Both the position numbers and the translations under genes were made by a program. Positions 2,936 through 46,063 of a DNA stretch of 64,000 bases are shown in pieces. The DNA lies in the NCBI GenBank assembly GCA_963971535.1, contig OZ020587.1:157765901-157829900 (forward strand), in the 5' to 3' direction. Source of the DNA: Notolepis coatsorum. Taxonomy: Eukaryota; Chordata; Actinopteri; Aulopiformes; Paralepididae. The number at the start of each line of letters is the position of its first letter. The stretch's first letter is position 1. The notes under the pieces are model-generated. The model saw only the letters and a program-made list of their open reading frames with translations, did no database searches and had not been told where the DNA came from.

Positions 2936-2959
2936 GTGAAGAAAACCCCCATTGCCCCC

Positions 2960-5650: not shown

Positions 5651-5687
5651 CCCCATTGCACCTCCACCTCCCCACCTCCCCCCCCCC

Positions 5688-8003: not shown

Positions 8004-8127
8004 TAGGGATGGGAATTGATAGGATTTTATCGATACGATTCCATTATCGATTCTGCTTATCGATTCGATTCTTTATCGATACCTGATCAATTTATAATTT
8101 ACATAAATAAATTGGAAATGCAACAGA

Positions 8128-8535
8128 ACTACATTTACATTTAGCTGACGCTTTTATCCAAAGCGACTTACAAGTTCTGTACGACAAGCCATCAGGAAGG
8201 GCACAACTCTATCAGCTGAGCAACAATGTTCATCAAAGTGTTGAGTGCTACAGTGTAGGTTAGTTTATTAGGACAAGTGCATGACCGTACGGTTAGTTAG
8301 GGTTAGATTTTTTTTTTTTATTCAGATAATGGTTGAAGAAGTGAGTCTTTAGTCGACGGCGAAAGATTGGACGTGATTCGGCTGTCCTAACTGGGGTGGG
8401 TAGTTCATTCCACCATTGTGGGGCAAGGACTGAGAATAGGCGACTTCTCTTTGATGACCCTCCCGGAGCTTGGATAGGAGTAGGTCTGAGGCGGCCAGAA
8501 GATGCAGAGCGTAGGGGTCTAAGCTGGTTAGAATA
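8128..8535. repeat. Nested interspersed repeat, copy 2, longer version
   Basis: It carries the CATTTAGCTGACGC repeat up to GGTTAGGGTTAGA (8308), then a T run and about 220 bp with GCAAGGACTGAGAATAGGCG and GATGCAGAGCGTAGGGG. It interrupts the hAT MITE, whose sequence resumes at AAGCTGGTTAGAATAACAAC (about 8520). There is no convincing ORF. Confidence 0.65.
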
Positions 8536-8759
8536 ACAACATGCAACTTGACATTTCTGATTGTCATTTATTGTTGAGCCCCCATGTCAGAAAAATACAA
8601 AAACTGTAAAAAATAAAACATTAACTATAGCCTACACTTAAATAAAATAATGTATTTGAGATTCTCTTAAAATGTATTTATTTTTTTATTCTTAAACTAA
8701 TTTAATCTATTGAATAACAGGTCGTTATTCCTCTGACTTCTGACACACACAAGAACAGA

Positions 8760-9159
<400 letters not shown>

Positions 9160-9720
9160 CTCTCCCCGGGCCCCTGTCCTATAAGGTATTGGCTTGTGTT
9201 GCTACACGGACACATTTGTATGTTGCACCACTTGTACTTCCTGGCTTACAGAGTACAGAAGTAAACAAACACTCCGTCTATTATGTGAACTAAAGAGTAC
9301 AAGGTTTACACAACAGCCCCCACCTGCTGTTTTATTGTATTTGTACCTGTACTATCCGCTGTCAGCTGTTTATCTCTCTTTGTGAGCTTGATTAAATAGC
9401 GTTAGCTCACGTTAGATAGCGTTAGCTCCGCGGCTAATTTTAGCTCACCCTCAACTAAATCAATGACTAGGTTCTAAAGCATTCAAGTAGTTTTCACTGC
9501 ACATAGAAGTAGCCAAACAGCGGGAGCATTTCGGGAGCATATTACCAAAACCCAGGCAATTTCGAGCCCTTAAGGAATCAAATAGAGTCTGCCATGGCTA
9601 CATGCTAACGTTATTGCGCAACTAGGAAAAACCTGGCAGCGATAATGGAATCGAAAGTCACGGGAGCTACACGGTTCCAGGCATCGGCCAATTAGGAACC
9701 GGTTTCGATTCCCATCCCTA

Positions 9721-9936
9721 CAGGCCACGCCCCCCCCCCCTCTCGGGACTCACCTCCCCCCCGACTCTTTACAGTTGGGGCAGGTACAGGCCACGCCCCC
9801 CTCTCAGGACTCACCTCCCGCCCGACTCTTTACAGTTGGGGCAGGTACAGGCCACGCCCCCCTCTCAGGACTCACCTCCCCCCCGACTCTTTACAATTGG
9901 GGCAGGTACAGGCCACGCCCCCCTCTCAGGACTCAC
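9721..9936 (-). repeat. sp3 Btd-box minisatellite, block C, contiguous with the parent exon
   Basis: Three full extra units lie between the hAT MITE and the intact exon (GACTCTTTACA cores at about 9764, 9823 and 9883; the fourth core at 9946 is the exon itself). One unit carries the same CAATTGG variant seen in blocks A and B. This block shows that the array grew directly from the exon 3' end and its donor. Confidence 0.95.
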
Positions 9937-10123
9937 CTCCCCCCCGACTCTTTACAGTTGGGGCAGGTACAGGCCACGCGCCGCAGCCTCTTGCTGGCCT
10001 CCTGCAGCACGTCGTCCTCGTCGACCAGCCGGACCCGCAGGTGGGACAGGTCGCTGGTGTTCAGGGTCGACTCGCTGCCCAGCTGCCAGTCCTCGCAGTC
10101 TGGCTCCTCCTTGATCTGGATGT
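9937..10123 (-). CDS. sp3: sp3 exon 6 (sumoylation motif and Btd box)
   Basis: The acceptor TTTACCACCACAG is followed by ACATCCAGATCAAGG. The exon codes (D)[14 protein letters not shown], then [13 protein letters not shown], and ends [15 protein letters not shown]. The 187-nt exon starts in phase 1 and ends with two nt (AG) before GTGAGT. IKEEP corresponds to the sumoylation site of Sp3, and CTCPNC is the Btd box that precedes the zinc fingers. The last ~40 nt and the donor are the seed of the adjoining minisatellite. A missed donor would give an immediate in-frame TGA. Confidence 0.93.
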
Positions 10124-11071
10124 CTGTGGTGGTAAACAAATATTATTATTTATTCATTAAATATATAAATGGTGCATTATTATATTAGCAGCTCAAGTCA
10201 AGTCAAGAGTTTTATTTGTCACGGCATACAAGGCATACAGTGAAATGCGGGTGGTCATGCCTGCAGCGATTGTGCAATAAATTATTCAAACAAACATACA
10301 TGTATGTAGTACAGATTGGTCGGATACACAAATGTACAGTGAAGACACACATACGCTATACTACCCACCCCTCATCCCCTCAGACGGTCTGTAGTGTGGT
10401 AGTGAAAGCGTTAACCTTCTGTAGTGTGGTAGTGAAAGGTTAACCTTCTGTAGTGTGGTAGTGAAACAGGGCTGTACGCTAAGCTTTTTCACTAGGGGCA
10501 CACTTGCCCCTAAATGAGAAATTTAGGGGCAAAGAATATATTTTAGGGGCACATTTTTAAATAACTATTTTACCATTATAGTAGGGCTGGGCGATATGGC
10601 CTCTAAATGATAACGCGATATTTTGACATTTCCTCTAAAGCACTTAAAAATGCTTGATTTAACCCTTTGATGCATACAGTCACGCCAATATGATGATTAT
10701 AATAAGTCCCTGCAACATATGTTTGCATTATTAAACCATGAAGATGCTTTAAAAAATAATTTAATGAAAATGTACTAAGAGTAGTCTACTGACACTAATA
10801 AAAAAAATTATTTACATCTAAGACTATTTATATAAAAACTCTTGGGTGCCTTTTACACAGTACTGTGTTTTCTATCCACTTTAGCCAAACACACACACAC
10901 ATATATATATATACACACACACACTACTGTGAGAAAATAATAATCACACAGACTTAATGATTTTAGAATATTTCAGATAATGAAATAAAATGTTTATATC
11001 ATCAACTATCCAGTTAGTATTTATACTGTGTGTAACATTTGGCTACTTTAAATCATTGAATGTAGAGAGAG

Positions 11072-17100: not shown

Positions 17101-20100
17101 CCACCCCAGAACCCAACAGGGCCACCCCAGAACCCACAGAGGAGCCAGCAGAGAGGAAGAGCCTCCTGCTGTTTGCTTCAGATGGATGGAGGATGAAGAG
17201 GGGGCTAACAGTGCTCCGGTCCTCTACAGAGCAGAGACAACCGTTTCTTAGTCTGGTTTGTTCATACAGAATATTGAAAAAATAAGAGAAATTGAGTTCA
17301 ATCAAGACGTTTTTCCCAATGGTCAACTGTTCATGAATGTCCTCGAAAGTGCGTGAGTTTACAAAAAGGTCCTTTGCGCTACATATATTATAGGGCTGTC
17401 TTAAATACTTTGAAGCTTTGTTCGATGGGCATGGTATTCGAATATGAAAATAAAATTTGATTACCGTAATTCCTCTAATAGTAACCCCGGCTTGTATTTG
17501 TTTCAACTGTAGCGGGTACCAGGCTTGTATTAGGAGGAGGCCTGTATAAGAGGGAGGCCTATATTTCAAATTTTCAAACGGATCATAATGAATAAATCAA
17601 CATTTTGTGTCAGTTTGAACCCAGTAAAATGTACTGGGTTCATTTATTGAAACCAAGTACTGTATGAAATAGTAAACAGTGCAATTACAGGTGGTCACTG
17701 GTCATTTCAACGTTTTCAAAGTGAAATCAAGTAACTAGCTCAGTATGCAGCTCAGTATATTAGTAACCCGGCTTGTATTAGGAGGCCGGCTTATAATTGC
17801 TTAGCTCAAGAGCGCACCCGGCCATTAATAGAGACCCGGCTTGTATTTGAGACCCGGTTACTATTAGAGGAATTACGGTATGTTAAAAAAAAATACAAAA
17901 AATGTTGTGTGCAAAATCAACTGCCTCTCTTTGTTAACACTTTGAGCGCCACGCCGTGTTTTCCTTTTTACCCCCTTGAATGCCATGGTCCACTCCCAAT
18001 GTTAACGTTAATATGGCCTAATCTATGTTTTAAATTATGGCTATGTGTCTAATCTGCCCGTCGCTTATCAAAGAATCATTTTCCAGTCAGTGTTGTCAAG
18101 GCAGATTGTTTTTTTATCGCTTCATTTCCGTTTGAGAGCATTTTGAAAAGCACCCGTTTTCAGGTGAAAAACAACATATTCTATGATAATCGCCTTTTAC
18201 TGGAATATTCCAGAACGTTGATATTTGTCTGCCTATTTATGAATCGTTTTCAAATAAACGCTAGATGATCAATAGTATACGTGCATGCACGCACGTATGT
18301 TCGAGCCGCGCGCTGATAATAGCTGCTTTCATTTCCTCATGGATTTTACAGTGAAACAGCTAGAGCACATATCACAAAAAAGCTTATATCTCCTCGAAAA
18401 CGAGTCTGATTATCCTAACACTGATAACATAGATTCCTTAACTGACATCAGATGGTATCCAAATTAGGGATGCACGATATTGATTTTTTGACACCGATAT
18501 CGATAACTTTATGCTCCTCAAGCCGATAACCGATACCGATATTTATTGTATTATATATTTTTTTTTAAATGTATATATATATATTTTTTTGGATAACATT
18601 TTTTTTTTTTTTAGTATTTATAAGCTCCGACGTCATCGGTACTGCTATCGGTACTCGAGAAATTATGGAGTTTTTTTTTTAGGAATTTAAACGTCGCAAA
18701 CTAATCTTGTTGGCCGTTTTCTATATCTCTCGTGCCTGGGTGTCTCTGCCTGCGCAAGGAGCGGGCTGTGCTGTGCTCACACACACTCACTCACACACAC
18801 ACACACACACACGGGTGCTGCCGAGTACAGACAGCTCTGCTCTCATCATGGCGGACAGAACGAAACGTTCAAAAGTCTGGGTCTATTTTACTAAAGTCGA
18901 TGCTGACAACGCTCGTTGCCACAAGTGCAACAAGACATTTGCCAGTAATGTATAAGCGCTGGTACTTGTCAATGTGGCTGGCGGGGAGATAACGTTAGCT
19001 CCGAGTAGAATAATGGCTGACAATCGGGAAGTAAATAAACTAATGAGAGCTTCCGATTGGTGGTAAGAAGAAGAGGTGGGTGCAAGCGGTGGGACGTAAT
19101 TGGCAGATCGACTGTCTGCCTCCGAATGTAACGTGACTACGTCACAGCCAAGAAAGGGAGCACTGGATTTGTGAAAAACTCCCTGTTCCTAAACCACACG
19201 CTATCAGTGGTACCACATTATCGGCCCGATAATTATCGTGCATCCCTAATCCCAATGGTATATTCCAATTCCTGATCACCATTCGAAAAAATATAAAAGT
19301 ATGGGCAATAGCATAAAAGTATATTGATCCAACGTGTGTACAGTATAACCCATGATCGCCGCGGCTCAGAGGATCCAGAATGAACTCTGGTAACTCCGGC
19401 TGCATCAGTGGACTGGAAAATGTGGACTGGAATATTTTTTTTCCCCCATCCATTTTCATTGAGTCCATTCCAAAAGTGTGATTTACCATCTGGGAGACGA
19501 TAGGGGCGCTTTTTTCACATCTGATCGCCGGCGGCCCCTGGGTAGGCTAGGGTAGGCTCGCGTGATGCAATATGGAAAAAAAAAAAAACAATCAGAGAAA
19601 AGCCGTGACGTGGCTTTCAACGTAACTATCGTAAACACGAGATTAGCCGTGAGTGGCGCTCAAAGTTTTAACTACAACAAGCAATGCGGTTTGTTATTTA
19701 AGATGAGGTCGGACTCGGCACTGACATATTTGTGTTCATTGTGCTGCTTTTATAAAGCCTCAAATGACGGCTTACAATATTTCATGGAAGCAAAGTGTTT
19801 AGTTTGTCTAAGATTTAAAAAAGGTTTAAACTTTACAGCACTGACAAAGTTGAACAAAGTGCTGTACAAGTCCCACAACATAAAAAAAATATATATACTG
19901 TATATATTTTAATTATTTTTTTTAATTTTTCGAAGCTTCGAATTAAAATCGAATCTCGGCCCCGAAGCTTAGAATTCCAAAAGAATAATCGAAGGTCAGC
20001 CCTAATATATATATTATTCCTAAAATTGCTGCGCTTTGTTAAAAATTGCATTTACCTGTTGGTCTGTTTAGTAGCTAATAAACAAGATGTTGCTGCTTAA

Positions 20101-23100
20101 ACGTATGTATGATGTATATTCATTGATTCACTTGTATACCAAAATCCATTTGAATTGAAACATTTTGCTTTTCGCATCAAATATTGATATGCGATTAAAA
20201 TGAGATTAATTTGGATGAATTAACTATAAAGTCTCGAATTAATTCGATAAAACATTTTAATCGAGTCCCACCACTAATTATTTTGATTATTATGATTTGA
20301 TTTTGAGCCTGTACTGCACTTCATTATCTTGCTGTAAAAGGTTTGTTCACGTTGGTAGTATTCGTAACCTCGCTGAACTAAACCAGAACTACTGGCGGGG
20401 GAGACAGTGGCTCGGGAGGTAGAGCAGTCGTCTGGTAATCCGGAGGTTCCATGTTCGATTTCCGCTCCTCCCAGGCAGCATGTCGAAGTGTCCTTGAGCA
20501 AGACACTTAACCCCTAATTGCTCACGATGAGCAGGTTGGCAGCACCTTGCATGATCGCCTCCGCCATTGGTGTGTGAACATGTGAGTGAATGGGTCAAAT
20601 GTGAGGAACAAATTGTAAAGCGCTTTGGATAAAAGCTGTTATATAAATGCAGACATTTACCATTTACTGTATATTCCAATTTACAACGGGTTAAAAAGAA
20701 TGTTCCAAACAGCACGTTTTCCATCTAGAGATCAGACTCTTGGAAGGATGTTTGTGATCATTACCCCGCGTTGATACGGCCGATAAAACTATAGATCGGG
20801 GTTTGGATGTGATTAGCGCAATATATGGTCTTAATCAAAATATGGGGGGGGAGGGGCATTTGTTATGGACATCATGTTTTATTTTTTTTATTAGAAACCA
20901 ATATTTCAATTAGGCTCAGGATCCAATTAATTACAAAGCCATGCGCGTGCCGTTTATAGATGGGACACGCACGCTGCTCTCTGCAGCTCCTCAGCACTCA
21001 CATTTCATGCCACACTAATCCTACTACCTTCCATGACTTTTAAAACTTATAATAAGTTTACAATAGAGGTGCCCTTCACATTATACCTTTATTATTATTA
21101 TTATCACTGGTACCTGGTTGTGATAGAAGTACTGTTGAAGATGGCTATTGAAAAGACACTGGTACATTTGTAAGACTTTGTGGGTGATATAATAAAAATC
21201 ATCCTCCAGTTGAAAGTCATCATTTATTCCCAGCACGTCACCCCTGGTTCTCCACTCCCTCCCGCCACTGGCTTCCAATAAACCAGCCTTTCACTTTCAA
21301 GACACTCCTGAGTCCTGTTGGGAATTTAAGGCCATAAATGGCATCAGTCTCACCCCCCCCCCACCCCCACCACCGAGACCTCATCCAGACACTCAGGTCC
21401 AACCTGCCTTCAGGGGCTTCTCATCCCCCCAAACCTCATCCAGACACTCAGGTCCAACCTGCCTTCAGGGGCTTCTCATCCCCCCAAACCTCATCCAGAC
21501 ACTCAGGTCCAACGTGCCTTCAGGGGCTTCTCATCCCCCCAAACCTCATCCAGGACACTCAGTATTAGTGTTGTCACGATACTGGAATTTCGACTTCGAT
21601 ACGATACCTTGAAAAGTATCGATACTTCGATACCATTTCGATATCAAAAAAAAAAATATATATATATATATATATATTTTTTTTTCTTCTTTTTTTAAAC
21701 AAATTTAGCTTTTGTTGCTGGTTGATTCTCCTCAGCTTCTCTCTGGTACTATAAGAGAAGATAAATATAACACTTTTAAAACCCTTTGTTTATCTTTAGA
21801 TCACACATTTAAAAATAACTGTTCTTCTCACTTCAATCATTTTTATTGCAAATGCAGAACATGGTATTTTCTCAAGCAGACAGATGTAAACACTGTAATC
21901 TGTGTTGCATGTACCTGACAAACTGTTTGTATTACAGTTAGTAACGGTTTCGATTTTTATTTAAAGATAACGAGAGCGAGCGAGCGAGCGATCGAGAGAG
22001 AGAGACTATGCTCCTCGGAGCATTTTAGTAACGTTACATTTTCAACAAGATTGCTGCTATTTAAACACTTGATGGAAACGGGGTAACGTTAACCTTATGT
22101 CGACTGTAGTATTGTATGACCTCGACATAACGTTTAAACGTTAACGTTACTCCGTTTCCATGCAGTAATTATTAGGGATGGGAATTGATCAGATTTTATC
22201 GATACAATTCCATTATCGATTCTGCTTATCGATCCGATTCTTTATCGATTCCCTTATCGGTTCCTGATACATTTATAAATTAAATAAATAAATTAAAAAA
22301 ACTAAGCTGGTTAGAATAACAACATGCAACTTGACATTTCTGATTGTCATTTATCATTTATGGTTGAGCCCCCATGTCAGAAAAATACAAAAACTGTAAA
22401 AAATGTATTAACTATACACTTAAATAAAATAATGTATTTGAGAACTAATTTAATCTATTGAACTGTAGTTGCATTCAACAGGTCGTTATTGCAAAAGAGA
22501 ATTCGTTAGCAACATGCGTGGAGCTAACGTTATTGTTTTTAAATGCGCAACTGTCGGAAAAACATGGCATCGATAAGAGGAATCGGTAGTCACGGAGGCA
22601 TGCGATTCCAGGAATCAGACAATTAGGAACCGGTTCCCAATCGATTCCGATTCTCGATTCCCATCCCTAGTAATTATACAGGTGGGCAGCTAAGCTAACG
22701 GAGCTAACAGCTAGCAGTAGCTAACGTTAGCTGGTAGCTGTAACGTTACAACGAATCAGCTGTTGATATTATGCGCCATGAGTAGACAACGTATCATGTA
22801 TTAAACTAGAGTTAATGGTTTAATGCTTCAGTCACAGTGACGTTGAAAGAGCAGCTGTCACGAACCTCTTTCATTTCTTTATGGAGATCCACTGCACTGC
22901 TCTGCACTGCTCTGTTTACAAACTGAAGACGGCGATTGTGAGGGGGAGGGCTGGACTCGGAGCAGGCGGAGGGGCAAGCGCGCTCTGAACAGCGTGTCAA
23001 CAACTTGCTGTAGAACACGCGCCAGCTGGTACCGATACTGCAGAAAGTATCGGTATTTCGGGAAATGAGTATCGAAGCCGTTTTAAATATTCAGTATCGA

Positions 23101-26100: not shown

Positions 26101-29100
26101 TATCGTATCGTGAGGCCTCTGGTGATTCCCACCCCTATTCCACTGACACGATGCCTTTAACCCTTTCACTGCTGCACTACCAAACGGTTAACCCTTTCAC
26201 TGCGACAATACACAGAAGGTTAACCCTTTCACTGCAAAACAATTTAAATAAAAAAAATTTCATAAAAATCTTAGTCAAACCTTTAGTATTATGGATATTA
26301 AACATGCTGGCAGAGTACATGCATCCATGTTGTCGTGAACATTTTAATTAAATAAAGAAATGCCCTATCCATAGTCGCCGTAGGAAGAGATAAAATAAAA
26401 AAATAAAATAAAAAAGAATTCCTACCTACTCATGGCCTTAACTGACAAACCAACAGGAACCAAACAGTATTTTGTTTTTATGCCTTAACCCTTTACTATC
26501 GCACTACCGACGGTAACCGAGAGAGGGAGCTTCCTTACCTCCGGGGCTGTTGTTCATGTCCCTGTCGTGCTGCGAGCCCACCGAGTTCACCCTCACCGTG
26601 TGCAGGTTGGGGATCTGCCCCGCGTGGTGGTGGTGGTGGTGGTGGTGGAGGAGGCCGCCCCCCTGCTGGCCGCTCCCCAGCGACAGCGTCTGGACGGGCG
26701 CCAGGGTGATCTGCTGCGGCGGCGTGGTGGTGGGCAGCTGGAGGTTCTGCAGGTTCTGCACGCCCTGCACCTGGAAGGTCTGCCACTGGATCTGCCCCGA
26801 CGCCGTCACTGTCTGCGCCTGGATAATGAAGGTGCCCGGGTTGATGAGCTGCACGTTCTGCAGGCCCTGGCCCCCGCCGCCCCCCGCCTGCACCAGCTGA
26901 CAGTCCAGGCCGCCGCCCTGCAGTTGCTGCAGCTGGAGGATGGGCTGCGCCGACGACACCTGGAGGTAGGGATGGGCAATTCATCGGGGGGAAAAAAATC
27001 GCGATCTCGATTCATAGACCTATGCAATCTCATTTCAAAATTATGACGATTTTCTTTATAAAATATATATATATATATTATATTATTAATTAATATTAAA
27101 TATATATATTTTTTTAAGCTTTTTTCCCTGCTCTTTTTTGAGGGCACTCCATCCACCCCCCCCCCTCTTCGGGGGACAACTTTATTATTTATTATACGTT
27201 TTAACTATTTACAGTACAAAATTTAATAAAAAGTGTAGTAAAATAAGAAAAATATTTAAAAAATATATTTCATTGCCCTCTCGGAGGGGGGGAACTCAGA
27301 CTAGACATTGACAAACAAATTACAACTAAGGACAATGAAGGACAACAACGAATACACATGACAAGGGAAAGGGGGGGGGGGCAGAGAGGGGAGTAAGTAA
27401 AGTAGGGGGTGAGGAGGGGGATTGAGAGAAGGGTGGGTTGTGGAGTGGACGGCTCACAGGTCAATCTCCTATGATTAGGAGCCTAGATTATTCACAAGCA
27501 ATTCCCAGATGTTATTAAATTGTGAGACTTCGATGTGATCCACGGTTGAGATTGTTTCCTGTGATATGTAATTTGAGAGAAGGCCCAACCATTGCCCAGT
27601 ATTCACATATTTTTTCTTGTCTTCCAGTTTAAGAGGATAGTTTTCTTGGCAACAGCTAGAGAAACGAGTAGGGGTTTGGTGTTCTGGACTAATAAATTGA
27701 TAGCAGTAGTATCCCCAAGTAGGCAGAGGGAGAGGGAGAGAGGAATGCTGCAGCTCATGACCCGGGATAGTGTATTGATGACGGAATTCCAGAAGTCTTG
27801 AACAGGTTGGCAGAGCCAGGTGGCATGGAAATAGTTGTCTGGGGTGTTGAGGGTGCAATGGGAGCATACATCTGTGCTTGCAAATCCCATTTGAAACATC
27901 CTGTGCTGTGTGATATGTATTAATATTAAAAAAAAAAAAAAAAAAAACCCGACCGGTACTTTACTTTTTTTAAATGATGACGATTCTGACTAGAGTTATT
28001 TTGTATGTTACAAGAGACTTTTAAGTTTAAAGGAAAACTCCAACATTTTGGGAAATTAGCTTATTTGCCATCTACCCTGGAGTTAGACAAGAAGATACAT
28101 ACCTTTTTCTTCTCTGTGCATGCAGTAGGAGTAGGAAGACGTTGGGAACTAGGCTAATGGAGGAACCTACTTCCAGTGACTGACGCTAAGCTAGGCTAAC
28201 GGTGCACGTCTTCCTACTCCTACTACATGCACAGAGAAGAAAAAAGGTATGCATCTTCTTGTCTAACTCCAGGGTAGATGGCAAATAAGCTAATTTCCCA
28301 AAATGTTGGGAGTTTTCCTTTAAGTCAAGCACTTTGATATATGTTATGTTGTCTGTTTAAGAAAGAGTGCAATAAATGATTTTATTGAATAAGAATCGTG
28401 TGAGAGAATAGTGATCACAATTCTTAAGAGAGGGAAAAATCGTGATTCACATTTTTAGCAAGAATCGCCCCCCAGCCCTACCTGGATGTTGTGGACCTGG
28501 TTCTGCTGCACGAAGGCCTCCTGGAGGACAGAGCCCCCCGAGTCCGCGTGCTGCTGCTCCATGGACGACAGCGAGGCGGCGTCCTGCGTGGTCAGCAGAA
28601 CCCCGCCCGACTCGCCCGCGGCGGCGGACGACGTCGGCACGTAGATCCCTTGGTTCGCGTGGTCGGAGTCATTCTGGGAGAGGAGGACGTGGCCCTTCAT
28701 CTCCAAGCAGCCCTCCGAGCCCTCCTCCTCCTCCTCCTCCGCCGACTGGCCGGTCATGATCAGCTGGCCGTCGGCGGTGACGCCGGTGGCGATGGTCTGG
28801 GCACCGGACAGGCCGAGGGAGTCCAGGTCCAGGCTGTTGATGGGCAGGAAAGTGATGTTCCCCGGCAGACCCATAGGCACGTTCGTGACCACCTGCCCCT
28901 GGCTGTTGAAGGAGGCGGAGTTCCCGATAGAGAGGCCCTGTATGTGCTGGACGTGGCCCGTCTGTGAGATGAGGTTCTGGTGGTTGGCGGCAGTGGTGAG
29001 GATGCTCTGGCTGCCGTCGCCGGGCAGAATCTGGATCTGGTGGTGACCCGCCGTGGCGCCGTCTTGCGACGAGAAGCTCAGCTGTCCGGCGCCGTCAGCC

Positions 29101-32100
29101 GTCTGGATCTGAGGGATCACTTGGTACTGGATGTTAGGCACTGCTGTGTGGGCGGAGGAGGAGGCGTCGAGCCCCGAGGTCACAAAGATGGGTTGACCCT
29201 GGAGGCCCTGGAGAACGTACTGTCCGTTGGACGTGAGGATGCCCTGACCCTGGATGTGGATCATGCCGGTGGGGTCGTCCTTGCCCCCCGCTGCCGTCAC
29301 CGTCTGGGGGCTCAACACCTCCCACCGGTCGCTCCCCGTCAGCTGGATGGACGTGAGGTGGTCCGTCGTCTGGGGGGGGGGGGGGGGGGGGGGGAGGGGG
29401 AGACAATGGAGGACTTATAGACAACGACAAACAAATGCTCTGAAAAAGACGGTAATGTATAGAGCAGTTGCTTATCGGAATAGTATACAGAGAAATATAA
29501 CTATGGTAAGGAACAAATTTATGTTTAGAAATAAAGTTTAAAAAATTGCGCTCTGGAATAACGAGATACATTTTGGTCATTGACTTATTATGGAAATTAA
29601 TATGGAAATATAAAGGTGATCGGTGACTTGAGAAAAGTTATGCTATATTATGAGTTAAAATCATATAAACGAGTTTATCTGTTTTGTTCTTATGGACTGA
29701 TTATGGAATATGTATTCTATGGTTGGAGAATTGTGATATCCGACTTATGAATATTGAGTGAGCTTTGATTCACTTGGTCTGTTTGTTGTGATGTATTCTT
29801 GCGAGTACTTCAATGTTTGTGGTTTTATATTTGTATTTAAAAAAAATTGTGTTTGTATTTTAAATGTTTGGACCCCAGGAAGAGTAGTCTCACCTTGGTG
29901 TAGACTAATGGGGATCCACAATAAAACAATAAAAAACGAAAGCAATGCAACAAAAAGGTGCTGTAAGTGTTAAGATAAGTGTTTAAGTACCTCTACATTC
30001 TGACGGCCATCACTGACTGCAGTAAACACAAAATACATTTCCTGGTATCCTGTTCCCGCATTATCCAATCAGGAGAGAGATACCTCTCACTGCAAAAATT
30101 GGCTGACAAAATAAGAAATAAAACCTAGTTTTAAGCAAATATGTGCTTGAAACAAGTATAAAAATCTGCCAGTGCAGTAAGCAAATTTGGCTTGGTAAGA
30201 TTTCTTGAAATAAGTCAAATTATCTATCTATAGGGTTCTCTCTCCTGATTGGATTGGATTGAAGTGAAAAGGGATACCAGAACATTTATTTTGTGTTTAT
30301 TGCAGAGTGGAGGAACTGGGAAACCCATGACACACCTATTTTAACAAAATAATACCACTTACAGCACTGTAAAATCTTTAAAAGGGAAAGTTCAGGGTTA
30401 TTATTAATCACTGGCCAAACCCCCTCATGGATAATTCAAAAAAAGGTTTTCATTGCATATTTCGCCTGGCAGAACCCTTATTGCAGAACCATAATATTGT
30501 GTTCCGGTTAGTCGTGCTACACGGACCCAAACACTCCCGTCTCCGTGCCTGGCAGAACCATCATCTGGTCTGCCGTTACTGTATGAAGCACTCGCTCAGG
30601 GGCTCATACAGAACCAAGCATGTCACCGTAAAGTATGTGTACGGGCCGGTATTTTATTGTGATCATTAATAAACAAACCTGATCAATATCTTTGACCAGG
30701 ATGACTAACGAACCAAAACCAAAAACCCACCCTGTACCAAAACATGAAATCTGCCGTTCCGTGAGCGGAGAGAGACCTGCTGCAGACAAGAGTGGAGGTA
30801 ATGTAATTATTACAAATGGTAACGGTGACCGCTTTGACATTAAGCGGCGCCATCGGGTATATTGCCGTGTTATGGTTATTGCCGCTGCCGTGCATTTTTT
30901 TAAGATGCGTTCTAAAAATAGATTTCCCTCCATGATGAATCGATCACTACTCGAGTATTTAATGCGATCAATCGATCTGGGGAAAACATTACTTGTGACG
31001 TTCCCCATTATGGTCCGTGTGAATGCAGTCACGCAGAAGGACCCTCTTTGAGTGTAGGCAGCCCTGGTCTAGTGGTATAATAATGCTTTCCATCACTGAC
31101 ATCACCAGCCTTCATGATAAACAAGGAGTGGTGCGATTTAGGCAACACAAAGGAACTGTCTAACCACTGCTCCCCAGACCTGGAGTTTATCACGATAAAA
31201 TGTCGACCCTTCTTCCTCCCAAGAGAGTTAACGTCCATCATCCTCATCGGAGTGTACATTCCACCACACGCGAACACTGGGGTCGCACTTTCAAAACTTC
31301 ACGACGAGGTAAACAAACTCCAGACAGCTAATGTTGACGCTGCCATTTTGGTTCTGGGTGATTTCAACAGCGCGCGTCTTAAAAAGGTGTTGCCGAATTT
31401 CTATCAGCATGTGACCTGTCCCACCAGAGGCGAGAACATATTAGACCATGTATACTCGCAATTTAAGAATGGGTACAAGTCACAGGCTCTTAGTCCATTC
31501 GGTAAAAGCGATCACGCCGCCATCTTTCTTTTGCCAAAGTACAAACAAAGTCTCAAGCGAACGCCGGTGGTCTCGCGAGAGGTTAAGCGTTGGGCCGTGA
31601 CGTCAGAGGAGTCACTCCAAGCTGCACAGACTGGAGTGTATTCCGTGATAACACAGCCAATATTAACGAATACACCGAAACGGTGATTGACTATGTCTGT
31701 ACTCTGGTAGAAGAAACAATCCCCTCCACCAAAATTAAAATCTACCCAAATCAAAAGCCCTGGGTAGACAAATCCGTCCGTGAGGCTCTGAAAGTGCGCA
31801 CATCAGCATACAACACCGGGCTGGTGACAGGCAACATGGAAGAACACAAGATGGCAAGATACAACGTCAGGAGAGCAGTAATAGAGGCAAAACGGCGTTA
31901 CAGGGATAAAGTTGAACTTCAGTTTGAAAAAAGGCTGACTCTAGAGGCATGTGGCAGGGCCTCAGAACAATGACAGACTACAAAGGCACCCCCCTCAAAC
32001 TGAACAGTGACATCTCCTTAGCAAATGATCTCAATTCCTTCTATGCAAGGTTTGAGGCTGTGAATAACAACACCAGCCTACAAACCACGGCAATGGGGGG

Positions 32101-44100: not shown

Positions 44101-46063
44101 ATCATACTCCCTTATTCAATAACAATGCACTCTTAATTGGAAAACGACCTATAAGATTCCCTATATGGGAAGAGCAAGGCATACACTCATTAGGGGATGT
44201 TTTTAACAAACAGGGTTTTTGTAGTGATAAAGAAATACGCAAAGAATTTAATATCACCAAGTCCACATGGCTTTTTCACAAACAGTTAGAGCTATGTTTG
44301 AAGTCTCACGGTGTTCCATTAGACAGACCAATTGAACACCACAGATACCACAAATTCTTCTACGCAAGAGAGACATCGAGAGGTTTTGTTTCAGAATTTT
44401 ATCATCAATTACTAACGTCCTCGTATGAAACCCTCCAACTTGACTCTGTCTGGAGGAGGGATATACCAGACCTGGAAAATGACTTTGATTGGCAAGGAGC
44501 CTGGGCAAATGTCCGACTTACATCAAGGAACCCGGATCATCAACAAATCAATCTTAACTATATTCACAGGACATACTTGACTCCTATAAGACTGTGCCGA
44601 ATGGGGCTTAAACAAGATTCCAAATGCATCCAATGTACATATGGGGACAAAGGGACATTTATGCACATGTATTGGGACTGCTCAATTAATGCTTGTATAT
44701 CTTATCGTGTGTTGTCATGTTTGTTTATATGTTTGTTTAAAAAATAATAAAAAAATAAAATACAAAACGGTTAACCCTTTCACTATGACGACAGACAGAG
44801 GGTTAACCCTTTCACTGCCGCACGACAGCAGGTTAACCCTTTCACTGCAACAACTCGCAGAAGGTTAACCTTTTACTATCACGGTTAACCCTTTCACTGC
44901 GACGACACACATAGGGTTAACCCTTTCACTGCCACGCGACAGCCGGTTAACCCGTCGGTTGTGTGGTAGTAAAGGTTTGACCTTCTGTCGTGTGGCAGTG
45001 AAAGGGTTTTAAGAGACATTTTGATTGAGTATTTTATTTCCGATATAACCCCCCAGCCACAGAGGTGGTGACACTTACCCCATCAGAGCCTGACGACAGC
45101 GGCGAGCCCACCTTGCTGCAGGTCGTGGCTAGAAGGTGCAGCGGTGAGGGCTGGGGGTCCTGCCCACCAGGGGGGCGGGTTCCAGGGGGAGAGAAAGTGG
45201 GTGGCCATTAGTCCAGTCCAGGAGGGGCCACATAGGAAGTTGGGACTCATCACTAGGCTAGCAACACTTTGAAACGTGTGAATGAATGAATGAAAACTTT
45301 ATTTAACAGATTGCAGAATGGGTACAATACAGTACGGCTCAATACACACAATTGTTAAGGGGATGCAGACCAGAGAAAGACATTAGTCTTGTTTACATCA
45401 GATGAACTCCACCCTTCCACTCACTCAACACACGACAGAGAAGATGCACAGACAGGGGGGGGTAGTTAGTTAGTTAGTCCGAAAACACAACATTACCTGC
45501 TCTCCTCTGTTGTTGTCTTGCTGCTGCTGCTGCAGAAAGTCGCTGTCCACGTCCATGGCTGCAGCCATGTCGTCCTCCTTCACAGGCTGTTCTGGGGCTG
45601 TTCTTGTGTTGTTGTAGGACAACAAAAGAGAATAGCAAAGGCTTATTAAGCCAAGCAAACCATGACGTGTTACTCTACCTAACACACTAAAGGAACGTTA
45701 GCCAGCTTTGCCAATAAGGTAACGTTGAGGTTAGCTTTATGAAAATGGACAGAAGTTGCTGCACAGAACAGAGAGCTAACCAGCTAACAGCAGCAGGCTA
45801 GTGTTGTATTGGAGGGACGCTAGCTAGCTAACAAGCGTAGCTGGCTTCTGTTGCTAAATAGCTAACGTGAGCTAACTAACCGACATTAGCTGCTTTATTT
45901 ACTTTCTAACTTTACTATATAAAGAACGAACAGCAGTGTGTTAGCTAGCGAGCTAACGGGATAGCTTAGCTTAAAGGACGCCCCCCCCCTAAGCTAGCCT
46001 GTTTGTTAGCTAGCTCCCGTTGGTTTATTATTAAAGAAATGGTTGAAATTACATACCAGTCAT
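9937..46063 (-). CDS. sp3: Transcription factor Sp3, N-terminal part (six exons visible; zinc fingers off-window)
   Basis: This is an Sp-family GC-box-binding nuclear transcription factor. Visible coding segments on the minus strand are 46063-46057, 45597-45497, 45159-45079, 29369-28482, 26959-26539 and 10123-9937. They join in frame for 1685 nt (561 codons plus 2 nt). Residues [13 protein letters not shown] match the Sp3 N-terminus. [36 protein letters not shown] and [11 protein letters not shown] (Btd box) are Sp3-type and not Sp1- or Sp4-type. The two glutamine-rich activation regions and a sumoylation-type IKEEP motif are present. The three C2H2 zinc fingers should follow beyond position 1. 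I cannot tell the sp3a from the sp3b paralogue. The exon encoding the Q-rich regions is split, which I believe is not the usual vertebrate structure. Confidence 0.93.
10197..10335 (-). mobile_element. 5'-truncated L2/Rex1-type LINE tail
   Basis: Read on the minus strand it ends GTGACAAATAAAACTCTTG then ACTTGACTTG. The plus strand shows GAAATGCGGGTGGTCATGCC. The same tail terminates the ORF-bearing LINE at 62290-63998, and plus-strand copies occur at about 24700-24875 and 61160-61266. Confidence 0.7.
10385..10466 (-). repeat. TTAACCCTTTCACT minisatellite, left part
   Basis: Three units of the dispersed ~31-bp repeat are present, on the plus strand as GTAGTGTGGTAGTGAAAG plus GTTAACCTTCT. A hAT element (10467-12035) separates them from the longer array at 12036-12607, so these were one array. 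Confidence 0.85.
11067..11196. repeat. (GA)n/(GAGC)n microsatellite
   Basis: A GAGA tract with interspersed GAGC units is nested in the hAT element. The RERER and LSLSL ORFs it produces are artefacts. Confidence 0.95.
11413..11600. repeat. Interspersed repeat (CATTTAGCTGACGC family), copy 3
   Basis: Nearly identical to the copies at 4655 and 8128, ending GGTTAGTTAGGGTTAGATTT with a T run. It is nested in the hAT element at 10467-12035. Confidence 0.75.
12036..12607 (-). repeat. TTAACCCTTTCACT minisatellite, main array (~18 units)
   Basis: Plus-strand units read GTAGTGTGGTAGTGAAAG(GG/CG)TTAACCTTCT with a ~30-32 bp period. The minus strand gives TTAACCCTTTCACTACCAC. It lies in an sp3 intron. 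The minus-strand 90-residue ORF only translates the repeat. Confidence 0.93.
12608..12925. other. Intronic sequence without a recognised gene
   Basis: Apart from a short GGGTGTCAAACTAAATCACA motif near 12828, which resembles the end of a common fish repeat, I recognise nothing here. The ORFs are short and unconvincing. Confidence 0.5.
12930..14231. mobile_element. TTAA-flanked MITE (piggyBac-like), hosting a nested hAT
   Basis: The left end TTAA-AGGGGAACTAT (TTAA 12926-12929) and right end ATAGTTCCCCT-TTAA (TTAA 14232-14235) are exact inverted repeats. TTAA duplications point to piggyBac or a similar TTAA-specific superfamily. Removing the nested hAT (13162-14026 plus one duplication) leaves about 430 bp, a typical MITE length. 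Confidence 0.8.
13162..14026. mobile_element. hAT MITE, 8-bp TSD ATTATTAT
   Basis: The termini TAGGGATGTCCCGATC and GATCGGGACATCCCTA are inverted repeats flanked by ATTATTAT on both sides (13154-13161 and 14027-14034). Many internal CCGATCCGATC motifs are subterminal repeats of the family. There is no transposase. Confidence 0.92.
14461..14601. repeat. 47-bp tandem repeat, three copies
   Basis: AGAACCTTCAGCTTCAGAGT recurs at 14461, 14508 and 14555, each followed by GGGCGTTCCAGGTGTTGG. It lies in intronic sequence. The flanks (14232-14460 and 14602-14991) show nothing recognisable. Confidence 0.85.
15255..15425 (+). pseudogene. BED zinc-finger relic of a hAT transposase
   Basis: One plus frame reads [20 protein letters not shown], then NAKHVVAN. 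This fits the C-x-C ... H-x4-H layout of a BED finger, but the frame carries a TGA just upstream. It ends in the next nested MITE at about 15428. It is a degenerate relic, not a functional domain. Confidence 0.55.
15428..15737. mobile_element. hAT MITE (ATCGGT-rich), nested
   Basis: It starts TAGTGATGCACGATATATC and ends near CATTTTCACATCGGTGA, with repeated CGATAT/ATCGGT motifs. It lies immediately after the BED relic. The terminal match is weaker than in the 18465 copy. Confidence 0.55.
15921..16863. mobile_element. piggyBac-like MITE, TTAA-flanked
   Basis: The left end TTAA-CACATTGAGTGCCA and right end TGGCACTCAATGTG-TTAA are exact inverted repeats. A diverged sister lies at 17938-19667, and a third partial copy ends at about 24531. 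Internal ORFs are short. Confidence 0.82.
17464..17878. mobile_element. MITE with ~24-bp TIR and TA duplication
   Basis: CCGTAATTCCTCTAATAGTA on the left is matched by TACTATTAGAGGAATTACGG on the right, flanked by TA on both sides. This is consistent with a Tc1/mariner-type non-autonomous element. Internal copies of GGCTTGTAT add further short repeats. Confidence 0.8.
17938..19667. mobile_element. piggyBac-like MITE, second copy, split by a hAT
   Basis: The left end TTAA-CACTTTGAGCGCCA and right end TGGCGCTCAAAGT-TTTAA are inverted and resemble the 15921-16863 copy. They share internal blocks such as TTATGGCTATGTGTCTAAT and CATTGAGTCCATTCC. A hAT (18465-19248) is inserted in it. Confidence 0.75.
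18465..19248. mobile_element. hAT element with BED-finger exon remnant
   Basis: The ends TAGGGATGCACGATATTG and TTATCGTGCATCCCTA are inverted. The flanks are ATCCAAAT and ATCCCAAT (one mismatch). At 18848-18955 the plus strand opens [20 protein letters not shown] then [11 protein letters not shown], the first half of a BED zinc finger of a ZBED-type hAT transposase, before a stop. It is an internally deleted derivative. Confidence 0.8.
20398..20666 (+). mobile_element. tRNA-headed SINE
   Basis: The head contains an A-box-like GTGGCTCGGGAGGTAGAGC and a B-box-like TGTTCGATTTCC. A body with GTGTCCTTGAGCAAGACAC and a tail TTGGATAAAAGCTGTTATAT follow. The promoter boxes imply RNA polymerase III origin. 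The 3' half alone is present again at 52376-52512 inside another minisatellite. Confidence 0.8.
20667..21340. other. Intronic sequence without a recognised gene
   Basis: It is moderately AT-rich and contains a short ATT-triplet tract near 21090. I see no ORF, terminal repeat or RNA gene that I can support. Confidence 0.4.
21373..21560. repeat. ~55-bp tandem repeat, 3.4 copies
   Basis: CCTCATCCAGACACTCAGGT recurs with CTGCCTTCAGGGGCTTCTCA and a CCCCCCAAA spacer. The last copy abuts the hAT element at 21566, whose duplication CTCAGTAT starts in it. Confidence 0.88.
21566..23135. mobile_element. hAT-type element, 8-bp TSD CTCAGTAT
   Basis: TAGTGTTGTCACGATAC on the left and ATTTTTGACAACACTA on the right are inverted. 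CTCAGTAT flanks both sides (21558-21565 and 23136-23143). ATCGATAC-rich subterminal sequence is present. A complete TAGGGATGGGAATTGA MITE is nested at 22173-22669. Confidence 0.9.
22173..22669. mobile_element. Complete 497-bp hAT MITE, TSD GTAATTAT
   Basis: It starts TAGGGATGGGAATTGATC and ends TCTCGATTCCCATCCCTA. GTAATTAT flanks both sides (22165-22172 and 22670-22677). This is the reference copy of the family that also split the sp3 minisatellite (8004-9720): shared internal blocks include AAGCTGGTTAGAATAACAAC and ATTAGGAACCGGTT. Confidence 0.93.
23431..23625 (+). mobile_element. LINE 3' tail
   Basis: A 3' UTR-like stretch ends AATTCCCCCAAGGGATCAAT then AAAGGAATATC, a typical fish L2-type tail. 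It is 5'-truncated and without coding sequence. The neighbouring 23144-23430 and 23626-23936 hold nothing I recognise. Confidence 0.6.
23937..24563. mobile_element. hAT-type MITE (GGTACC-rich) with nested piggyBac-like fragment
   Basis: TAGGGTTGGGTACCG on the left pairs with CGGTACCCATCCCTA on the right. The flanks GCAGGGGT and GCGGGGCT match at six of eight positions. A CACTCAATGTG-TTAA end near 24531 belongs to a nested piggyBac-like MITE. A cleaner member of the same family is at 37247-37612. Confidence 0.7.
24600..26139. mobile_element. hAT-type element (TATCG-rich), TSD CCACTGAC
   Basis: TAGTGGTGGGGGGAAAT on the left and GATTCCCACCCCTATT on the right are imperfect inverted ends. CCACTGAC is duplicated (24592-24599 and 26140-26147). 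Nested content includes a LINE tail (about 24700-24875) and a block with CTAAATCCAGATTCAACCC that recurs at about 47770 and 54305. Confidence 0.7.
26158..26245 (+). repeat. TTAACCCTTTCACTGC minisatellite, three units
   Basis: Short run of the dispersed repeat in plus orientation. A degenerate further unit lies at about 26486-26516, some 20 bp beyond the sp3 exon 5 donor. The intervening 26246-26480 is AT-rich without a recognisable gene. Confidence 0.85.
26539..26959 (-). CDS. sp3: sp3 exon 5 (second glutamine-rich region)
   Basis: 421 nt in phase 0 at the start, ending with one nt of the Asp codon completed by exon 6. It codes [51 protein letters not shown] and [15 protein letters not shown], the transactivation region B of Sp3. 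A run of eight histidines from a GTG/CAC triplet repeat precedes [16 protein letters not shown]. The donor is GGAG|GTAAGG. Its acceptor lies inside a transposon target-site duplication. I recall human SP3 encoding this region in the same exon as the preceding segment. Confidence 0.94.
27105..27925 (-). mobile_element. Tx1/L1-type LINE 3' fragment nested in sp3 intron 4
   Basis: At 27899-27603 (minus) the frame reads [20 protein letters not shown] then [14 protein letters not shown]. This resembles the C-terminal cysteine-containing tail of Tx1/L1 ORF2, comparable to [19 protein letters not shown] in the element at 39831. It is 5'-truncated. TAATATTAAA occurs near both ends and may be its target duplication. 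Confidence 0.65.
28029..28323. mobile_element. Foldback MITE with ~120-bp inverted arms
   Basis: AAAGGAAAACTCCAACATTT...ACCTTTTTTCTTCTCTGTGC is mirrored by GCACAGAGAAGAAAAAAGGT ... AAATGTTGGGAGTTTTCCTTT. The arms are nearly perfect over ~120 bp with a short GCTAAGCTAGGC-containing centre. Transcribed as part of sp3 intron 4, it would form a long RNA hairpin. Confidence 0.88.
28482..29369 (-). CDS. sp3: sp3 exon 4 (first glutamine/serine-threonine-rich region)
   Basis: 888 nt (296 codons), phase 0 at both ends. It begins [20 protein letters not shown]. It continues with [34 protein letters not shown], an acidic run of six glutamates in a GAG triplet repeat, [11 protein letters not shown], and ends [10 protein letters not shown]. 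The acceptor follows a long C run (G run on plus at about 29372-29391); the donor is CAG|GTAGGG. This is transactivation region A of Sp3. Confidence 0.95.
29861..29940 (+). mobile_element. LINE 3' tail
   Basis: TGGACCCCAGGAAGAGTAG ... CTAATGGGGATCCACAATAA is a typical terminal motif of a fish non-LTR element. Upstream sequence (29400-29860) is AT-rich and probably its 3' UTR, without a supportable ORF. Confidence 0.6.
29957..30369. mobile_element. MITE-like inverted-repeat element
   Basis: GGTGCTGTAAGTG on the left is inverted as CACTTACAGCACT on the right. Internal matching blocks (ATCCAATCAGGAGAGAG versus CTCTCTCCTGATTGGAT, and GGTATCC versus GGATACC) give a partial stem. There is no coding content. 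The adjacent 30370-31060 has no feature I can name. Confidence 0.6.
31061..34005 (+). pseudogene. L2/Rex1-type LINE, frameshifted copy
   Basis: The apurinic-type endonuclease remnant (31127-31620; [16 protein letters not shown]) lacks its N-terminus. Frameshifts occur at about 31625, 31946, the G run at 32096-32109, and a small deletion at about 32491. Reverse transcriptase blocks follow: [67 protein letters not shown] and the catalytic FADDTVVVG (about 32830). The last ORF ends at 33515. The 3' UTR closes with AAACTTGAACTTGAAACTTG. At least four frame breaks make it non-functional. It sits in the 15.7-kb sp3 intron 3. Confidence 0.93.
34150..34335. repeat. Two-copy tandem duplication, ~110 bp
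   Basis: GGGATATTAAAAGG ... CATTATTCATAGTATA ... AAATAGGTCTTTG(A/G)TG occurs twice in direct orientation (from about 34173 and 34264), differing by small indels. The following stretch to 34744 contains TTTTTAAGACCTTTTTAATACC-like repeats and nothing codable. Confidence 0.75.
34745..36945 (+). pseudogene. Non-LTR retrotransposon RT C-terminal fragment, split by a hAT
   Basis: The left part carries [11 protein letters not shown] followed by decayed sequence to 35199. The reading resumes after the hAT element as [20 protein letters not shown] and the start of an LWNELPLP motif. These are C-terminal features of L2/RTE-type reverse transcriptases. It is truncated at both ends and interrupted by frameshifts. 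Confidence 0.7.
35200..36772. mobile_element. hAT-type element, 8-bp TSD GGCCCCTG (same family as 10467-12035)
   Basis: CAGGCCTGTACACTGCG on the left and TTAGCGTACAGCCCTG on the right are inverted. GGCCCCTG flanks both sides (35192-35199 and 36773-36780). Compared with 10467-12035 it is inverted: the TTAGGGGCAAGTGTGCCCCTAG region lies at the right end here. No transposase. Confidence 0.9.
36946..37708. mobile_element. hAT-type element (TTCGAAGC-rich), hosting a nested MITE
   Basis: TAGGGCTGACCTTCGATT on the left and AAGACCAGCCCTA on the right are inverted. It is related to 17391-20003. The block GTACAGCACTTTGTTCAACT is shared in reverse orientation with 19850-19870. A GGTACC-type MITE is inserted at 37247. 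Confidence 0.7.
37247..37612. mobile_element. hAT MITE (GGTACC family), TSD AGTCCGAC
   Basis: The ends TAGGGATGGGTACCGAATTC and AAGGTACCCATCCCTA are inverted. AGTCCGAC is duplicated exactly (37239-37246 and 37613-37620). Confidence 0.93.
37968..38832. mobile_element. Probable transposon remnant
   Basis: CATAGGGCCCCATGGATGGA on the left and GGATTTCATAGGACCCTAG on the right look like diverged inverted ends. A plus-strand frame reads [20 protein letters not shown] then ITEENTKRL (about 38410-38500), suggesting a decayed coding exon I cannot assign. The following 38833-39420 has only a short TG repeat (39236-39268). Confidence 0.45.
39421..39830 (+). repeat. TTAACCCTTTCACTGCCACACGACAG minisatellite (~10 units)
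   Basis: The ~29-31 bp repeat is interrupted at about 39450-39540 by a truncated L2 tail ending AACTTGAACTTGAAACT, which matches 33920-34000. The array continues after the L1 element at 44763, so the L1 inserted into it. Confidence 0.9.
39835..40194 (+). CDS. L1 ORF1 C-terminal fragment
   Basis: About 119 codons. [20 protein letters not shown] corresponds to the RNA-recognition-type core, and [14 protein letters not shown] with SPEDAAKFL to the C-terminal domain of L1 ORF1 nucleic-acid-binding proteins. The N-terminal coiled coil is missing because the element is 5'-truncated. The downstream interval to 41258 contains no long frame, although [14 protein letters not shown] (about 40280) may be a decayed extension. 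Confidence 0.7.
   Translation: MEQCFRLGTRSIGNNAKPRVILVILRQVRIKEMIIRETRRMKCNLKYMDVPIHCFEDYCRDVVELRAKFKTVMSQLYLEKYRPLLIYPAILRIVDKQGARVLLNSPEDAAKFLSAQHAE
41259..44747 (+). CDS. L1 ORF2: endonuclease-reverse transcriptase, 1162 codons
   Basis: The protein nicks target DNA and reverse-transcribes element RNA at the nick. The N-terminal endonuclease (residues ~1-235) has [26 protein letters not shown] and SDHCYLL. The reverse transcriptase (~450-760) has [67 protein letters not shown] and YADDVILFM (near residue 695). The C-terminal region ends [19 protein letters not shown] and then diverges into what looks like 3' UTR, so the last part of the family's ORF2 is probably deleted. It is otherwise one open frame. 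ATG at 41259 fits the conserved start [11 protein letters not shown]. Confidence 0.93.
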   Translation: MASLNIMIWNTGGINNQLKRKSVLTLMKKEHVDIALLSETHILGKDIDKLADNIYHNISHSSIGTRTRGVAIVVKRKLNIVLKGVWSDVEGRITIAKIEHNRKIALIAVYAPNLYEEDFFTTLTNAMLDIPDYSFIIGADFNAIWNPRMDQSYLAFSSEQKNSSKALKDWSKITGVNDLWRLLNPTTRKYSCRSARHNTLSRIDYVFASQRLFDNYEVEMIPNALSDHCYLLLKGTFGILSSRAPRWRFNSLLLNNKEFITQLKEALIVFQRENANSVQDPRIIWMSVKGMIKDFTDSFSSKMRKNQCTKLAELETLYSTLFNSLKYNNSTRLENQVNVLKIEINAIYRQQSEIQIRSTRQQQYSQGSKPSHLLAMRLRINATFADITTIRAQQVLVTDPVKINDTFKVFYSDLYKSETTFDQNKMDTFLNQIILPKLSEDDAKQLETPITLEELKKAITAMKSGKAPGRDGFPSEMYLSCWDIIGPLLLNMILYSVKEGNFHKNDNIALITVLLKKDKDPNKCGSYRPLSLLGTDIKLYSKVLAIRLQKHMTSLVHPDQTGFIGGRLITENIRRILHVLDADKEDTIPKAMLSLDAMKAFDRLEWSYLWAVLERMGLGKGFIDMIKVLYKDPSAMITTGTIISKIFPVSRSARQGCPLSPGLFNLSLEPLAQYIRQSQYIEPIVIKGTQQKISLYADDVILFMQNPNTTSPHLLKLIEDFGDLSGFKINWPKSAFLPLNTPAKKDTTLPGQIPMVKHFRCLGVEIFPTIRQTVKHNYTKIQNKIKDDLDRWAKLKNTVQARISIVKMDVLPKINFFCSMLPLPPPEGYWKRLHSSTYKFIWNNKPPRIKKSTAQRNKADGGMAFPDSFLYFKAYTLSPLTTWFDSQALASWRKIEENIVAPHRLKDIAYTKLPIKHCERKFGPIITHAIRIWRESQKKNPNPQKWHNHTPLFNNNALLIGKRPIRFPIWEEQGIHSLGDVFNKQGFCSDKEIRKEFNITKSTWLFHKQLELCLKSHGVPLDRPIEHHRYHKFFYARETSRGFVSEFYHQLLTSSYETLQLDSVWRRDIPDLENDFDWQGAWANVRLTSRNPDHQQINLNYIHRTYLTPIRLCRMGLKQDSKCIQCTYGDKGTFMHMYWDCSINACISYRVLSCLFICLFKK
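44763..45010 (+). repeat. TTAACCCTTTCACTGCC minisatellite, right part
   Basis: Continuation of the 39421-39830 array after the L1 insertion. About eight units are present; the last ones turn to the opposite orientation (GTGGCAGTGAAAGGGTT near 45000). Confidence 0.88.
45079..45159 (-). CDS. sp3: sp3 exon 3
   Basis: 81 nt, phase 0 at both ends. It codes [20 protein letters not shown] then LSSGSDG, equivalent to the Sp-family SPLALLAATCSKIG box. The acceptor is GGTGGGCAG|GAC and the donor GATGGG|GTAAGT. Confidence 0.93.
45290..45390 (-). mobile_element. LINE 3' tail (AATGGGTACAATACAG family)
   Basis: The tail with GCAGAATGGGTACAATACAG and AATTGTTAAGGGGATGCAGA read here recurs at 46828-46865, 47313-47870, 47980-48072 (minus) and 50800-51085, 51290-51350, 55700-55797 (plus). 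It ends in a TGAT/ATTG-type tetranucleotide tail. The coding part is not present in any copy here. Confidence 0.7.
45497..45597 (-). CDS. sp3: sp3 exon 2
   Basis: 101 nt coding (A)[20 protein letters not shown] then [13 protein letters not shown]. It follows a polypyrimidine stretch and the acceptor AAGAACAG|CCCC. The donor is GAGCAG|GTAATG. The PVKEDD motif is the counterpart of the N-terminal lysine motif of Sp3. A CAG/CTG triplet run encodes the glutamines. Confidence 0.93.
46057..46063 (-). CDS. sp3: sp3 exon 1, coding part (start codon)
   Basis: CAA ATG ACT G|GTATGT: the seven coding nucleotides joined to exon 2 give MTAPEQPVK, matching the known Sp3 N-terminus MTAPEKPVK. That match, not length, fixes this start. 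The 5' UTR extends to larger coordinates; its end is not visible. Confidence 0.88.

Follow-up and report, generated by a model that had tools for sequence, protein, structure and literature searches.

A hAT-type transposon probably gave rise to an intron of sp3a at a codon boundary that carries an unrelated intron in the paralogue sp3b

Giroux et al. are said to have described, in 1994, a maize Ds element (hAT superfamily) that is inserted in an exon and spliced as an intron. The sp3a locus analyzed here resembles that plant case in that an exonic hAT element is predicted to be spliced out, and differs from it in lying in a fish genome. A fish precedent is intron 3 of the notothenioid slc26a2 gene (NTE-1), described in 2025, where insertion of a transposable element into an exon produced an intron (PMC12357937). 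The gene slc26a2 is like sp3a in that GT and AG lie within repeats (direct and inverted) and a later nested element enlarged the intron. It is unlike sp3a in its 4-nt duplication, its tgt...aca ends and its presence in five notothenioids, whereas sp3a has an 8-bp duplication and TAGGG ends (hAT), was seen in one genome, and has a paralogue with an intron at the same boundary. Since this precedent follows the same logic, sp3a joins a known kind of intron gain, to which it would add a clear superfamily assignment and a same-site gain in a paralogue. An earlier note on this DNA had held that such clean examples are rare in a vertebrate regulatory gene, a view that slc26a2 tempers.

Other gains are known from further afield. 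Introners are DNA elements with target site duplications (TSDs) and terminal inverted repeats (TIRs) that become introns and often borrow their splice sites from the TSD (PMC9860276); they account for many introns per genome, whereas a small sample taken here showed no second hAT-born intron. Melanocortin-receptor genes of ray-finned fishes gained lineage-specific introns at proto-splice sites (PMC3151243); these differ from sp3a in being old, and repeats are listed for them with no splice-site-flush duplication in the parts covered. Parallel gains have been reported for Introner-like elements in fungi (PMC4457414) and in Daphnia (PMC4202315), and are likewise independent; the sp3 case differs in that it involves two vertebrate paralogues, one of which still shows how its intron arose. 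A review discusses transposons that duplicate a proto-splice site and tabulates cases from Oryza, Drosophila, Oikopleura and Zea (PMC3443670). Our literature search found no earlier report of the sp3a hAT intron and no papers on Sp3 gene structure. At this locus the element, its duplication, the predicted splice sites and unsplit relatives are all visible, and an unrelated intron occupies the identical boundary in the paralogue. The pair would be a concrete example of paralogues that have identical intron positions without having inherited them, a point of importance for reconstructions in which shared intron positions count as homologous.

The window, by which we mean the whole 64-kb stretch analyzed, is part of a 3.42-Gb genome and holds much of sp3a on its minus strand. 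Two coding exons were found in it upstream of the split exon, and two zinc-finger pieces lie outside it (in L030). The features of the gene and of the split exon are as follows.

45497..45601, minus strand: sp3a coding exon containing TAPEQPVK... (aligned part, approximate limits)
45073..45168, minus strand: sp3a coding exon (aligned part, approximate limits)
28482..29369, minus strand: upstream half of the split large glutamine-rich exon, after a CAG acceptor; 3' end ...AACATCCAG
28481..28488: donor-side TSD copy, forward CCTGGATG, minus CATCCAGG; 7 bases exonic, last G the first intron base
26960..28481, minus strand: predicted new sp3a intron, 1,522 bp, GT...AG, phase 0
26967..28480: hAT-type element, enlarged by nested insertions, with TIRs TAGGGATGGG / TAGGGCTGGG
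26986..26998, minus strand: pyrimidine tract TTTTTTTCCCCCC in front of the acceptor, contributed by the hAT end
26959..26966: acceptor-side TSD copy, forward CCTGGAGG, minus CCTCCAGG; CCTCCAG intronic, supplying the AG, last G exonic
26539..26959, minus strand: downstream half of the split exon, beginning GTGTCGTCG and ending CCCCGGAG, then donor GTAAGG
9936..10124, minus strand: next sp3a exon after the split exon, DIQIKEEPD... (aligned part)

We found that the 1,522-bp intron is the sum of a 1,514-bp hAT-type element and one 8-bp copy of its duplication. On the minus strand, the upstream exon ends at 28482 (CATCCAG/GTAGGGCTGGG, also CAACATCCAG/GTAGGGCTGGGG) and the coding sequence restarts at 26959 (CCCATCCCTACCTCCAG/GTGTCG, that is, CCCATCCCTACCTCCAG/GTGTCGTCG). 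The donor is formed by the last base of one duplication copy and the first base of the element, and the acceptor AG lies within the other copy. The two copies agree at 7/8 bases, a level of at least 7/8 that a random flank pair would reach in 25/65,536 cases if base frequencies were equal, and the element termini match at 9/10 bases. The intronic copy holds the single TSD mismatch (CTC); the exonic one retains ATC (Ile), the residue that P0001 to P0003 have as well (NIQ). With the intron removed, the frame reads through HNIQ/VSSAQ as 436 open codons with 0 stops; with the intron retained, HNIQ would be followed by eight codons and a stop (VGLGGDSC, then stop). No AG occurs between the pyrimidine tract and the acceptor AG, and the splice sites look close to what we take to be the consensus. 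The ends of the element show no inverted repeat above shuffled sequence beyond their first 10 bases (a local alignment scored 20, whereas the 95% point of the shuffles was 23), so the two ends are paired only by the short TIR, the duplication and comparison with the family.

These readings bear out most of what the earlier note had described: an intron made of a transposon plus one copy of an 8-bp duplication, TAGGG(A/C)TGGG terminal repeats, a donor G and an acceptor AG inside the duplication copies, a continuous HNIQ/VSSAQ frame and a mismatch confined to the intronic side. Its phrase "exactly one transposon" has to be amended, the element being a nest of three insertions.

We looked into the family to which the outer element belongs. 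The whole 1,514-bp element had a full-length match only to itself among the 40 scored of 5,962 genome candidates. Its right-end 157 bp, in contrast, found itself and 39 others at 90-93% as the 40 scored of 2,163 candidates, and an exact 25-base family end occurs 344 times in the genome (reversed-pattern control, 0). Both ends could be located in 24/29 fetched copies, 18 of which are 335-400 bp long; their TSDs match at 8/8 bases in 14 cases, at 7 in 4 and at 6 or fewer in 6, the low scores saying little since the copy ends were searched within +/-4 bases. The consensus of the family opens with TAGGGCTGGGC and closes with GCCCAGCCCTA. With an 8-bp TSD and short TIRs of the yAGGGnTGGG type, ends that we take to be hAT-typical, the element belongs to the hAT superfamily on these sequence features. 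No transposase was recognised in it.

Two further insertions are nested in the element.

27101..27918, minus strand: 5'-truncated LINE inside the hAT element
27089..27100 and 27919..27930: 12-bp target duplication of the LINE, ATTAATATTAAA
28027..28325: inverted-repeat element of ~300 bp, 88-nt arms 90% complementary (approximate ends)

Subtracting the LINE and the inverted-repeat element from 1,514 bp gives ~385 bp, the size of the relatives, so the original insert would have been a non-autonomous hAT element of ~385 bp. Compared with a consensus built from 20 genomic copies, the LINE differs at 13/808 bases (1.6%), and all 20 extend beyond its truncation point. Since it sits inside the hAT element, the hAT insertion must be the older of the two. 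The hAT insertion itself cannot be dated, since the right end differs from the family consensus at 5/150 positions and the left end at 14/118, two figures that disagree, with subfamilies mixed at the left end (6.4-27.5% divergence there in other copies); both figures are biased low, the compared copies being the best matches to the query. For this comparison 24 right and 19 left ends remained once L034 (the intron itself), L041, L046, L050, L052 and L053 had been omitted.

We then compared the split exon with its relatives in other genomes. Three protein searches, of which we kept the best 120 of 1,126, of 162 and of 1,043 hits, together gave 241 distinct proteins, 119 of them without zinc fingers; leaving out 8 that lack the upstream motif and 6 of the sp3b type made 105 countable sequences. 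Among these matches, 103/105 fish sp3a or tetrapod-type SP3 sequences cross the HNIQ/VSSA site unbroken, none ends there, and two stop short of it (P0121, a broken model, and P0221, a fragment). The comparison concerns open-reading-frame continuity in mostly unnamed contigs and not annotated gene structures: raw contig ORFs make up 95 of the 103, and the other 8 are NCBI/UniRef records, comprising 2 unnamed records and 6 named gene models, a kind of record in which introns do not show. As expected of unspliced DNA, 76/95 raw ORFs continue through the rest of the exon without entering the next one. Among the matches listed, eight tetrapod-type SP3 sequences, five raw ORFs included, run across both flanking motifs. 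P0003 is unsplit, ends in SPGGKEA plus a short tail with the same donor context as the window gene, and is its sister in a FastTree tree (support, 0.964) of 35 rows, namely the window sp3a and 34 of the best 120 proteins of the first search. The best protein hits are 65-67% identical to the sp3a product among the matches listed, and since the nearest named relatives reach only 65%, the gain cannot be placed in time on the tree. As 103/105 sequences cross the site and none ends there, the ancestral sp3a exon was most likely unsplit, as the earlier note had supposed for vertebrate Sp3 when it proposed a comparison with related fishes.

The genome contains a second sp3 gene on contig C6 (L070, G000:C6:20480001-20490000), which we call sp3b. 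Its counterpart of the large exon is in four pieces, with three breaks, all in phase 0, at CAG/GT and between Q and V codons.

sp3b intron 1 of the counterpart exon: YQ/VIPQ, 4,232 bp, phase 0
sp3b intron 2 of the counterpart exon: IQ/VSTS, 357 bp, phase 0, beginning GTGAGAATG
sp3b intron 3 of the counterpart exon: FQ/VQGV, 190 bp, phase 0

The 357-bp intron occupies exactly the codon boundary (IQ/VS) and phase of the sp3a hAT intron. Its start (GTGAGAATG) is unlike hAT, and it had a single candidate in the genome, itself, in a search that skips very common words. All six sp3b-type sequences of other fishes among the matches listed (4 raw ORFs, 2 gene models) end just past IQ/VS. A more distant paralogue on C9 aligned over the large exon as one open frame. 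Given that sp3b is a paralogue, that its intron is not hAT and matches only itself, and that sp3a orthologues lack the intron, we read the two introns, on this sequence evidence, as independent gains made in parallel at a CAG/GT proto-splice site, which fits the proto-splice-site model. Under the simplest history, the ancestor was unsplit, sp3b gained its intron early on, and the hAT element gave sp3a a separate one later. The earlier note had counted the same intron position in distant vertebrates without the transposon as evidence against its proposal; the sp3b intron is in one sense such a case, in a paralogue, and the sp3a orthologues are not. The sp3a exon holds 32 AGG sites and 4 CAGGT sites. 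Two of the CAGGT sites are positions of sp3b introns, so the chance of hitting an sp3b position is about 2/32 to 2/4 depending on the constraint assumed, and re-use of a position is not extraordinary if proto-splice sites are needed.

As for the remaining sp3b breaks, 20 sequences of other genomes (P0174, P0179, P0182-P0197, P0199 and P0200) end at WQTFQ/V, the position of the third sp3b intron. With one gene model, P0180, the FQ/V ends number 21; P0058 runs on with a variant residue. These ends suggest repeated use of that CAG/GT site.

We propose that the large exon of sp3a, then still unsplit, received a non-autonomous hAT element of ~385 bp within ...AAC ATC CAG GTG TCG..., and that the insertion left an 8-bp duplication with CCAGG at its end. 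The last G of the duplication and the first T of the element would form the donor CAG/GTAGGG, and the acceptor AG would come from the other copy, preceded by a hAT end rich in pyrimidines. With donor and acceptor so supplied, the spliceosome could remove the element together with one duplication copy and restore the ancestral mRNA exactly. The LINE fragment and the inverted-repeat element would have entered later and brought the intron to 1.5 kb, and sp3b would independently have acquired an older intron at the same codon boundary, a parallel gain at a proto-splice site. As is typical of introns created by transposons, the predicted splice sites fall in TSD and TIR, removal would restore the coding sequence, and orthologues appear to lack the intron. 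We consider it very probable that the hAT insertion created the predicted sp3a intron, which was later enlarged, in parallel to the sp3b gain. The anatomy, the family of the element, its nesting, the unsplit relatives, the coincidence with the sp3b intron and the open coding pieces can be read from the sequences themselves. We infer that the intron is spliced in the living fish, that the events took this order and that the insertion became fixed.

The alternative that keeps most weight, unlikely as we judge it, is that some transcripts keep the new intron or splice it alternatively, which would tune Sp3 isoforms, of which several exist. The intron lies inside the large glutamine-rich exon, after residue 297 of its 437-residue product, and is long and contains an inverted repeat, all of which would suit partial splicing; the good-looking sites argue for constitutive splicing instead.

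We give somewhat less credit still to a recent, disabling insertion that is spliced poorly or not at all, so that the sequenced allele yields truncated or reduced Sp3. Retention would bring a stop 8 codons past the junction, and the sp3a branch is long (0.338, compared with 0.058 for P0003, in the same FastTree tree). Against this reading, the intron has lasted through two nested insertions, one of them now 1.6% from its consensus, and the near-consensus-looking splice sites, the pyrimidine tract and the lack of a competing AG behind it count against it too. The aligned coding pieces are stop-free, and a search with the large-exon product, in which all 18 candidates were scored, found a single sp3a locus. 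Taking the right-end figure of 5/150 as an age, only ~1.3 stops would be expected in 1.3 kb (stop fraction, 2.9-3.4%), so a stop-free exon is weak evidence of splicing; loss of the gene is argued against, and the few stops expected since the insertion make this a weak test. The long branch could reflect relaxed constraint, and the third-position GC content (GC3) of sp3a offers an alternative reason, being 0.92 (0.90 in the zinc-finger exon) compared with 0.66 in sp3b, 0.60 in the C9 paralogue and a window GC of 43%. GC-biased gene conversion is one possible reason for both the GC3 excess and the long branch. The zinc-finger exon is identical to Centroberyx Sp3a at 67/68 residues. Structure and Pfam searches with the large-exon product gave no useful match.

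That an intron at IQ/VS predates the sp3a/sp3b duplication and the hAT element merely landed inside it is very improbable, even though sp3b here and the six other sp3b-type sequences break exactly at this boundary: we reject it on the grounds that the hAT duplications sit flush at the two splice sites and leave no remnant of an older intron, and that the sp3a orthologues are unsplit (an intron shared with sp3b was sought in these and in tetrapod SP3, and the sequences cross the site or, in two cases, stop short of it), the sp3b intron being in addition unrelated in sequence.

If the hAT insertion did create the sp3a intron, its family might be a vertebrate introner in waiting, with sp3a as one of several hAT-born introns in a repeat-rich genome, a suggestion that we regard as doubtful. 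The hAT end would supply the T of the donor GT, the antisense orientation an AG-free pyrimidine tract, and any exonic insertion with a duplication ending in AGG could then become a coding-neutral intron. The genome has 91 AGG-flanked hAT ends (the pattern also matches related hAT families), two of which coincide with the first 100 listed of the 344 exact right ends. We fetched 20/91, resolved 8/20 at both ends, and saw no second hAT-born intron among these eight, a small sample judged on open length alone; the longest open frame across a joined site was 65 of about 79 codons.

In the window as a whole, we counted 10 pairs of (C/T)AGGGnTGGG-type ends lying 0.1-6 kb apart, five of them with flanks agreeing at 7 or 8 of 8 bases, two of which share one right end. 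Besides the sp3a element, three TAGGGnTGGG-ended elements with perfect 8-bp duplications occupy 22173-22669 (GTAATTAT), 37247-37612 (AGTCCGAC) and 8004-9720 (CAGGCCAC). A BED zinc finger at 18683-18955 is perhaps the start of a hAT transposase, an open 1,163-codon LINE ORF at 41256-44747 has endonuclease and reverse transcriptase domains, and a fragment at 61259-61768 matches DDE_Tnp_1_7, which we take to be a piggyBac-type transposase, and zf-Tnp_2.

The element at 8004-9720 sits within a minisatellite in the sp3a intron that follows exon 10124-9936, and a left end like its own, with the same flank, recurs at 4532. The minisatellite has a ~60-bp period and covers 2954-4531, 5673-8003 and 9735-9979; its units consist of the end of exon 10124-9936 and the 5' splice site of that exon. 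The exon-end core TGTACCTGCCCCAAyTGTAAAGAG is present in 50 copies and GGTGAGTCCyGAG in 52, the first adjoining the true donor, and the minisatellite thus carries dozens of tandem splice-donor copies in an sp3a intron.
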